Origin: Bacteroidales bacterium
GTDB taxonomy: Bacteria > Bacteroidota > Bacteroidia > Bacteroidales > JAIPAP01
DNA: 48,558 nt
Reading direction: 5' to 3'
Assembly: GCA_021740045.1 (NCBI GenBank)
Contig: JAIPAP010000012.1
Location: forward strand, 1 to 48,558
The notes under the pieces were generated by a model. It worked only from the letters and a program-made list of their open reading frames with translations. It had not been told where the DNA came from and did no database searches. How positions within the stretch are numbered: position 1 is the first letter of the stretch; each line of letters starts with the position of its first letter. Below, in pieces: positions 30,074 through 33,673 of the stretch. The position numbers were made by a program, and so were the translations under genes.

Positions 30074-30637
30074 TCAAAATGATCGCAGTTCAGGTGTAAC
30101 CAATTCCACATCCAACAATGAATCTAGCCCGGCATAATTTCGTGCTGAACTGAAAAGATAATGTTCCGGCTTTTCAACAATCATTTCCTTAACCGGATTA
30201 TTATGAATATAATTCAACTTCTGCCACAAAAAATCATTGGAATAAATTAACTCAGGATGATTCCCATCCTGCCACATTTTGTAGTTCTTTATACGATTTA
30301 AGTACTGCCCTGTATATCCAAAATAAGAAAGCATCCATTTTCTTCTTCCCTCCTTTTCTGAAGCAATATTGTCAATTATCCTCTTAGTGGTATACTTTTT
30401 AAAATCCCTTATAATACCGCCGAGGTTTTCATCCTTTGCCTGTGCAATCATATGCAAGTGATTACTCATTAAACAATACCCATATATGATCAATCCTTTC
30501 TTGTCCTGACAAAATTTAAGCGAATTCAATATAACAAGTTTATGTTCTTTTTTAGCAAATACATCAATCCATCCGGTAATTGTGGAGGTTATGAAATAGG
30601 CTTTATCAGGATCAATTATTTTGTATTTCTCTGACAT
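30074..30637 (-). CDS. REP-associated tyrosine transposase (RAYT, IS200-like Y1 family)
   Basis: The 187-residue protein belongs to the HUH single-strand transposase superfamily. The metal-binding HxH is in LMSNHLHMI (His60, His62), preceded by GYCLMSN as usual. The C-terminal part has the RAYT-type tail WQKLNYIHNNPVKEMIVEKP followed by YLFSSARNYAGL, which separates RAYTs from plain IS200 transposases. The catalytic tyrosine should be Tyr112 or Tyr119 (GQYLNRIKNYKMW); I cannot decide between them. Length and motifs look intact. Such proteins nick and move REP palindromes, often as single-copy domesticated genes. Flanking palindromic elements B and C support the assignment. Confidence 0.9.
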   Translation of the reverse strand: MSEKYKIIDPDKAYFITSTITGWIDVFAKKEHKLVILNSLKFCQDKKGLIIYGYCLMSNHLHMIAQAKDENLGGIIRDFKKYTTKRIIDNIASEKEGRRKWMLSYFGYTGQYLNRIKNYKMWQDGNHPELIYSNDFLWQKLNYIHNNPVKEMIVEKPEHYLFSSARNYAGLDSLLDVELVTPELRSF

Positions 30638-31489: not shown

Positions 31490-33673
31490 TCAATCCTGAA
31501 GGCACCTGACTGAGAAACCGTAGTACTTATAGGTGCCGTAACGGCCCACTTCAGCGAGGTAGCCGAACAGGCGCCGGCTCCACGCGTAATCACTATAGTC
31601 CTCCGAAGAAGACCAAAAGTACGCGCGGTCGCCCAGAAGGTAGAAATAGCCACCTAAATTACGGTAGCCCGCCGGCAGGGCCGCAAAGCCAAAGGCATCG
31701 GAGCCGTTGCCGTTATTATACCATCCGCTGGTGCTTTTTAGGTTGAAACCGGCATCAGAGCCGCGCCATCCCCATTGTTCCCATTCCGAGTCGGGGTAGC
31801 CGTATTGGCTATCCACAGCGCCTTCCAGCATCATCCATTCCTCATCAGTGGGGATATGCCAACCGGGCGGACAAATGCCCTGCGTACCCTCCTGGGTGGT
31901 GTATTGCATCATCTCATCCCACTGGTACAGGCCGCCGTATTCGTCGCAGTTGGCTTCGTCATCATTATAGCAGTATTTCTCCATAATGTCGTTGTTTTGC
32001 ATTTCTTCGTTGCCATTGATGCGTTCGCCTGTGTTGAGGTTTTCAGCCATCCAGCATTGGTTACCTATTAATACGGCTTCGTATTCCTGCCCGTCGCGGG
32101 GGTCGGTGAAGGTGGAGGGGCAGCCGGTGGATTCCTCTTCCGTTGTAAAACTCCACACGGATCCTTCGGTGGTGTTGCCTTGATCATCATGGGCCACGAT
32201 TTTCCAGTAATATGTGGTGCTGTATTCCAACGTGCCCGGGTCATAAGTGGTTTCGGATATTCCGGTGGCCTCCTGCTGGGGAGCTTCATTTATTCCAAAA
32301 TACACATCATAAGTAAGCGGGTCTTGCTCCGGATCGGTGCATGCCCAGGAAAGATCGGTATTAATGGATTGGCCGGTGGCTTCATCTCCAGGAAAGGGAT
32401 TGGAGGGTACGGCCGGGGGCTGGTTTTGGGTAGTGGTTGTATCCTTTAGGCACCTGACTGAGAAACCGATGCTCTTACTGTCGTAGTTACGGCCCACTTC
32501 ATCGCTGAGTTTGTCCAGGCCCCGGTACCGCGCGTAACCACTACCGTACTCCGACGAAGACCAAAAGAACGCGAGGCTGCCCAGATAGTAGAAAACGCTA
32601 TTACTAAGACGCCAGCCCGCTGGCAGGGCCGCAAAGCCAAAGGCATCGGAGCCGTTGCCGTTATTATACCAACCGCTTGTGCTTTTCAGGTTGTAGCCGG
32701 CATCGGAGCCGCGGTAGCCGGTTTGTTCCCATTCGGGATCGGGGTAACCGTACTGGCTATCTACGGCGCCTTCCAGCATCATCCATTCTTCATCAGTGGG
32801 GAGGTGCCAGCCGGGTGGGCAAATGCCCTGGGTTCCCTGCTGGGTGGTGTAATGCATCATCTCATCCCACTGGTACAAGCCGCCGTATTCGTCGCAATTG
32901 GCTTCGTCGTCATCGTAGCAGTATTTTTCCATAATGTCGTTATTTTCCATTTCTTCATCGCCATCAATACGCTCGCCAATATTCAGGTTTTCGGCCATCC
33001 AGCATTGGTCACCTATCAATACAGCTTCGTACTCCTGCCCATCGCGGGGGTCGGTGAAAGTTAAGGGGCATTCGGGCTGGCTTTGGCCGGGGTAAACAAG
33101 TTCACCATCACCCAGCATTTTTACCAGGTAAAACTCCCCGGGCTGGGCGTCGCCTATGCCGTTTATCCAGTTGGGGCCAATTTTGTTGATCACATCCCCA
33201 TACATATTTCGGATAAACTCAAGGTCATCACCAATTATGCTTTCAAAAGCTTCCATGGCATCCAATGGCTCGGTAGGCAGGTAGCTTAAAAACTGGTAGC
33301 CTGTCTGCACGGGTATAGGCGTGGTTGGATCAATTACCTCGCCATACAGGGTGAGGGTTTCGGCTCCGGTCATCCTGAACAAATAGCCTTCGGTGGTGTT
33401 CCAATCGCCAATGCCGTTTATCCAGTTGGGGCCAATCTTTTGGATGATATCGCCTTGGGCATTGCGAATAAATTCTACATTATCGCCCAGTATGTCTTCC
33501 AGCACCACCAGCATATCAGGATCATCCGGCAGGATGTGGGAAGATACAAAACGATAGCCGTTTTCCAATTCAATAGTTTGGCTGGCACGTCCGTTTCCGA
33601 TGGGATTACTGTTTTGACCGTAACTCATTAGGAAGGCAAAAAGGGCTACGAAAAAAAGTAATGCTTGTTTCAT
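31490..33673 (-). CDS. Secreted protein with two FISUMP domains, probable DGR target
   Basis: The 727-residue protein starts at the ATG at 33673, just before a Sec signal peptide (MKQALLFFVALFAFLMSYGQ); an in-frame ATG at 33718 lies upstream of the predicted transcription start. Residues about 32-196 carry two repeats around KIGPNWINGIGD, a module shared with the T9SS protein at 7970. FISUMP domains (C-type-lectin-like fold, TFTDPRDGQEYEAVLIG) lie at 202-411 and 518-727, separated by a fibronectin-like domain (419-515). The FISUMP copies are nearly identical except for residues 354-402 and 670-718, where 23 of 28 differing codons keep the same pyrimidine third base and differ only at positions 1 and/or 2. 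This pattern is expected from a diversity-generating retroelement acting on AAY codons. The domain ends in GFSVRCL. No lipobox or T9SS tail is seen. Binding variable ligands outside the cell is the inferred role. Confidence 0.85.
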   Translation of the reverse strand: MKQALLFFVALFAFLMSYGQNSNPIGNGRASQTIELENGYRFVSSHILPDDPDMLVVLEDILGDNVEFIRNAQGDIIQKIGPNWINGIGDWNTTEGYLFRMTGAETLTLYGEVIDPTTPIPVQTGYQFLSYLPTEPLDAMEAFESIIGDDLEFIRNMYGDVINKIGPNWINGIGDAQPGEFYLVKMLGDGELVYPGQSQPECPLTFTDPRDGQEYEAVLIGDQCWMAENLNIGERIDGDEEMENNDIMEKYCYDDDEANCDEYGGLYQWDEMMHYTTQQGTQGICPPGWHLPTDEEWMMLEGAVDSQYGYPDPEWEQTGYRGSDAGYNLKSTSGWYNNGNGSDAFGFAALPAGWRLSNSVFYYLGSLAFFWSSSEYGSGYARYRGLDKLSDEVGRNYDSKSIGFSVRCLKDTTTTQNQPPAVPSNPFPGDEATGQSINTDLSWACTDPEQDPLTYDVYFGINEAPQQEATGISETTYDPGTLEYSTTYYWKIVAHDDQGNTTEGSVWSFTTEEESTGCPSTFTDPRDGQEYEAVLIGNQCWMAENLNTGERINGNEEMQNNDIMEKYCYNDDEANCDEYGGLYQWDEMMQYTTQEGTQGICPPGWHIPTDEEWMMLEGAVDSQYGYPDSEWEQWGWRGSDAGFNLKSTSGWYNNGNGSDAFGFAALPAGYRNLGGYFYLLGDRAYFWSSSEDYSDYAWSRRLFGYLAEVGRYGTYKYYGFSVRCLQD
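31520..31666 (-). other. Candidate DGR variable region 2 (C-terminal FISUMP copy)
   Basis: 49 codons (residues 670-718). Compared codon by codon with variable region 1, invariant blocks such as TTTTGGTCTTC, GAAGTGGGCCGT and the following GGTTTCTCAGTCAGGTGCC are base-identical, whereas variable codons differ at positions 1/2 and end in the same C or T. Examples (copy 1/copy 2): GTT/TAT, TAT/CTT, AGC/GAC, GAC/TTC, AGC/CTC, AGT/TAT. Confidence 0.8.
32468..32614 (-). other. Candidate DGR variable region 1 (N-terminal FISUMP copy)
   Basis: 49 codons (residues 354-402), equal in length to region 2 with no indel. It encodes a Ser/Tyr/Gly/Asp-rich variable surface (LSNSV, GSLAFF, YGSGYARY, NYDSKSI). 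It is followed by the conserved end GGTTTCTCAGTCAGGTGCC, where an initiation-of-homing site would be expected. Confidence 0.8.

Follow-up and report, generated by a model that had tools for sequence, protein, structure and literature searches.

A two-FISUMP protein of a Bacteroidales genome as a probable target of a diversity-generating retroelement acting in trans

Among the described diversity-generating retroelements (DGRs), that of Bordetella phage BPP-1 carries out adenine-directed mutagenic retrohoming into a C-type-lectin fold (Mtd). In the human microbiome and in Bacteroides phages, DGRs that target Fib_succ_major and DUF1566 domains have been described (PMC4159848, PMC8143477), with adenine-directed variation in a C-terminal variable region (VR). 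Several variable regions in one polypeptide have been reported in Marichromatium purpuratum, where three lie in one ORF of tandem FGE-sulfatase paralogs, an arrangement that the authors could not exclude as an artefact (PMC3521204), and in Thiohalocapsa PB-PSB1, where three variable regions in one target of DGR 4 are diversified in trans (PMC10907252). The same Thiohalocapsa study found loci disrupted in the reference and variants with intact components in the population (PMC10907252). A survey counted 31 of 271 multi-VR DGRs with several variable regions in one ORF (PMC6642488). A FISUMP target, a DGR acting in trans and more than one variable region per ORF have therefore each been published already.

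In this work the window (the whole stretch of DNA that was analysed, 48,558 nucleotides of a Bacteroidales genome) was studied for a gene encoding two FISUMP domains in one polypeptide. We conclude, with a probability of about 0.9, that a DGR has diversified two variable regions of the single polypeptide encoded by this gene, from a cassette that is located in trans and is missing from the assembly. Adenine-directed variation in a fold predicted to be C-type-lectin-like is a likeness to BPP-1, which in contrast has a cis cassette, a single variable region and a phage tail protein as its target. The gene shares the Fib_succ_major/DUF1566 type of target with the human-microbiome and Bacteroides phage DGRs, but it is chromosomal and carries an internal variable region as well. 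It shares several variable regions per polypeptide with Marichromatium and Thiohalocapsa (in trans in the latter), which belong to another phylum and depart from the Bacteroidales FISUMP type, the Marichromatium domains being of FGE type. The first-pass annotation had called tandem variable regions in one polypeptide unusual; they are indeed rarer than single ones, yet they have published precedents (PMC3521204, PMC10907252, PMC6642488).

Target gene and codon pattern of its two FISUMP copies

The 727-aa protein consists, in order, of a signal peptide-like N terminus, an N-terminal part, FISUMP 1, an Ig/Fn3-like linker (weak Big_9 match in a Pfam search) and FISUMP 2. Both FISUMP domains match PF09603 (Fib_succ_major) / TIGR02145 above the curated cut-off. 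The features are as follows:

31490..33673, minus strand: target gene, 727 aa (ORF call)
32444..33022, minus strand: FISUMP domain 1 (PF09603, 131 bits)
31499..32074, minus strand: FISUMP domain 2 (PF09603, 135 bits)
32468..32614, minus strand: variable region 1, 49 codons (codon alignment, FISUMP pair comparison, relatives' templates)
31520..31666, minus strand: variable region 2, 49 codons (same three lines of evidence)
32450..32671, minus strand: homogenised block around variable region 1 (silent differences nearly absent; inferred extent of template homology)
31502..31723, minus strand: homogenised block around variable region 2 (silent differences nearly absent)
32450..32467, minus strand: invariant 3' end of variable region 1, GGTTTCTCAGTCAGGTGC (pattern search; candidate IMH-like end, function inferred from position)
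31502..31519, minus strand: invariant 3' end of variable region 2, GGTTTCTCAGTCAGGTGC (pattern search)

The N-terminal part (33065-33673, minus strand) has no match in Pfam and is probably an undescribed surface-protein module; relatives of it are encoded at some 35-40 places across the same genome. Downstream, at a distance of approximately 0.9 kb, the target gene is followed by a Y1/IS200-like transposase gene (30074-30637, minus strand).

Codon-by-codon comparison of 31520-31666 and 32468-32614 reproduced the 28 differing codons without indels counted in the first-pass annotation. Replacements make up 27 of the 28, and the third base, as had also been noted, is unchanged in 24 of these 27 and is C or T in 23. 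The stretch common to both copies is longer than had been described, comprising 222 bp or 74 codons from TGG at codon 129 to TGC at codon 202 and ending at GGTTTCTCAGTCAGGTGC (31502-31723 and 32450-32671). Within this block 2 of 47 same-residue codons differ silently, versus 34 of 116 upstream (Fisher p=2.8e-4), and non-adenine positions are thus held identical in the manner of homing into a DGR target. Differences at codon positions 1, 2 and 3 number 22, 22 and 5 in the 74-codon block; in the 129 codons upstream they number 10, 4 and 39, with the third position dominant as in ordinary divergence. The block is homogenised between the two copies except at chosen codons.

The pair was then ranked among 185 FISUMP domains from this genome, from the loci of 80 relatives and from one phage locus (16,831 pairs in all). 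The fraction of replacement codons with the third base kept has a median of 0.30 and a 99.9th percentile of 0.79 over these pairs and is 0.89 in the window pair, which also has the lowest silent rate of all 16,831; its pattern is not a product of chance. Equally extreme pairs all occur within single genomes, namely in L124 of MAG RS_12_1 and L091 of KA21, two loci that carry FISUMP domains in tandem.

Templates and a two-domain target in other Bacteroidales

A search for DGR reverse transcriptase (RT) motifs within 8 kb of the 80 FISUMP relatives found none, which pointed to action in trans. When whole genomes were searched, strong DGR RTs (260-344 bits) were detected in many of the genomes behind the FISUMP relatives, and several other Bacteroidales genomes contain an adenine-rich FISUMP template adjoining a DGR RT. 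Five such strong RTs lie on separate contigs of one Bacteroidales MAG (Zod_Metabat.457, G415; L212-L216). Translated, the relatives' templates resemble FISUMP C-termini rich in AAY codons, like GLPGGNRNNNGNFNNVGNNGNWWTSTENNNNNAWNRNLNYNNPEVNRNNNNKENGFSVRCLRD, and their differences from the variable repeat fall on template adenines in 44/44 cases in KA21, 24/24 in G419 and 31/32 in G424.

Measured against these relatives' templates, and not a cognate one, the differences of the window are in the main confined to template adenines. With the KA21 template, 40 of 69 A sites and 11 of 123 other sites differ (odds ratio 14, p=3.3e-13), and with six other templates A sites are favoured in the same direction. 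Because FISUMP loops vary anyway, the template-adenine test was repeated on all FISUMP pairs (16,832). The odds ratio has a median of about 2 and a 99.9th percentile of about 8; the window pair, at 11-13, ranks 5, 5 and 3 of the 16,832 pairs with three templates.

In KA21 the following elements are assembled on contig C101:

L202:4050-5120: DGR RT
L202:5124-5316: template, between the DGR RT and the Avd gene
L202:6193-7605: local FISUMP variable repeat

The KA21 template matches the FISUMP gene on its own contig as well as L143 and L091, which are on other contigs. The latter (L091:7251-9533) encodes a 760-aa protein with two FISUMP domains that both match this one template in trans, with A sites changed in 40/65 and 34/65 and non-A sites in 9/118 and 8/118, respectively. 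KA21 thus has the two-FISUMP architecture of the window's protein together with its template, which acts in trans. The two systems have in common two variable regions in one FISUMP polypeptide, the same variable columns and the trans arrangement, and differ in that template, RT and Avd are assembled in KA21, its RT lacks a motif-4 segment and its target has a different N-terminal part. The missing in-frame segment bears the GxPIGNLTSQ motif, and present activity of the KA21 RT is doubtful unless the gap is an assembly error, though the KA21 targets look recently diversified. By eye, the 44 differences between the local variable repeat and the template are mostly A to G.

Search for a cassette and origin of the variable regions

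The first-pass annotation would have counted the lack of an RT or an adenine-rich template in the same genome against its proposal, and neither a DGR RT nor a template was found in the assembly (G000; 3.9 Mb, 161 contigs, 97% complete). A DGR RT profile search with E up to 10 returned nothing beyond one group II intron RT. A search with the inferred template, whose flank is GGTTTCTCAGTCAGGTGCC, returned only the FISUMP copies themselves. A pattern of AAY runs had no match in this genome or in 393 genomes of the order, a pattern that is too strict, as the relatives do have FISUMP templates. The best match to Avd scored 34.5 bits, below the cut-off of 40, and the Avd-like matches were rejected on inspection as general four-helix-bundle proteins. 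DGR-clade RT, template repeat and Avd are hence all three absent from this incomplete assembly. Template-like peptide and 3' flank searches in viral contigs gave nothing usable, FISUMP relatives in phages and plasmids are distant ones only, and there is no second genome of the same family or genus for comparison. What survives of the original proposal, with strong support from the relatives' templates, is that a DGR mutated two FISUMP regions in tandem at adenines, and not that a DGR is resident and active in the assembled genome.

The exact GGTTTCTCAGTCAGGTGC occurs once more in the genome, at C97:16788 within a FISUMP gene on contig C97. This third FISUMP copy (C97:16239-16808), whose 3' flank is identical to that of the variable regions in the window, gives an odds ratio of 9.9 when paired with FISUMP 2; from these features it is likely that the missing template also acted on this distant copy.

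We propose that a DGR RT would have copied the RNA of one adenine-rich FISUMP template with misincorporation opposite adenines, and that the cDNA would have overwritten each FISUMP copy in its 3' part, as far as GGTTTCTCAGTCAGGTGC. With repeated homing, the two copies would stay the same at non-adenine positions, and AAY codons would turn into NNY. This cassette would have acted in trans, its absence from the assembly being most likely due to its having been left unassembled or unbinned, and otherwise to recent loss. We infer that such a cassette exists in this organism and may be active at present. Loss is the substance of another reading, in which the variable regions are the work of a DGR whose cassette has meanwhile disappeared from the lineage, leaving a receptor that no longer changes. 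The absence of RT, template and Avd from a 97% complete bin fits this reading, as do the signature without an RT in RS_12_1 (L124) and the incomplete KA21 RT. Against it, silent differences between the blocks are almost nil, so homing must have been recent, and of 18 DGR RT stretches retrieved from relatives, about 14 are on contigs shorter than 16 kb; such contigs readily go missing in binning, which makes loss of the cassette in assembly or binning plausible. A fixed relic is on balance unlikely, though it deserves more weight than the readings below.

An origin without any DGR would require that gene conversion homogenised the 3' halves and that strong diversifying selection then acted on exposed loop residues; FISUMP loops do vary in all pairs, and a mild template-A preference (median odds ratio about 2) is present everywhere. 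This we consider very improbable, because 27 replacements versus one silent change over 55 codons, with the third base kept in 24 of 27, lie far outside the distribution of FISUMP pairs, and because selection on residues does not protect the third bases of replaced codons, which often carry two changes each. Still less credible is diversification of these genes by the genome's sole RT, which is encoded on contig C125 beside a FISUMP array, some 1 kb downstream from a four-FISUMP gene. This 420-aa protein has a GIIM domain, reaches 418 bits as a group II maturase and is flanked on both sides by the intact group II RNA domains RF01999 and RF00029, as expected of a group II intron, and a search beside it found no template. 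The complete intron (L020:10501-12320) lies directly downstream of the four-FISUMP gene, a frame of 1362 codons.

Predicted fold and possible role of the receptor

The AlphaFold2 model of FISUMP 2 (pLDDT 97) has as its nearest solved structures Legionella Lcl, C-type lectins, formylglycine-generating enzymes (FGE) and the DGR variable protein TaqVP, with middling VIA-align Z values of 8.6 for Lcl, 7.0 for FGE and 6.1 for TaqVP, and a C-type-lectin/FGE-like fold is predicted; the FISUMP profile found no relative among PDB sequences. The variable codons map to C-terminal strands and loops of the model. By analogy with known DGR proteins, the variable residues would bind ligand, and the two domains may present the two independent binding faces envisaged in the first-pass annotation.

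More tentatively, and at somewhat less than even odds, Bacteroidales may possess recurrent secreted two-armed receptors in which a single remote template diversifies both lectin-fold domains in trans, the targets being without a working cassette in some cells or lineages. If so, two diversified arms would give pairwise combinatorial specificity. The most interesting part is the recurrence of the two-variable-region FISUMP receptor: the arrangement is present in the window and, with a template, in KA21, and its signature in RS_12_1, which argues for a real design. The result is a well-supported two-variable-region polypeptide with a matching template in a relative; in the earliest report of this kind, from 2012, an artefact could not be ruled out. 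Whether both arms diversify together or separately becomes testable. Diversified targets can lie far from the cassette and be assembled without it, and surveys anchored on the RT therefore miss them. FISUMP-like domains are also encoded at two places in a huge phage of 735 kb (L170, LR756501).
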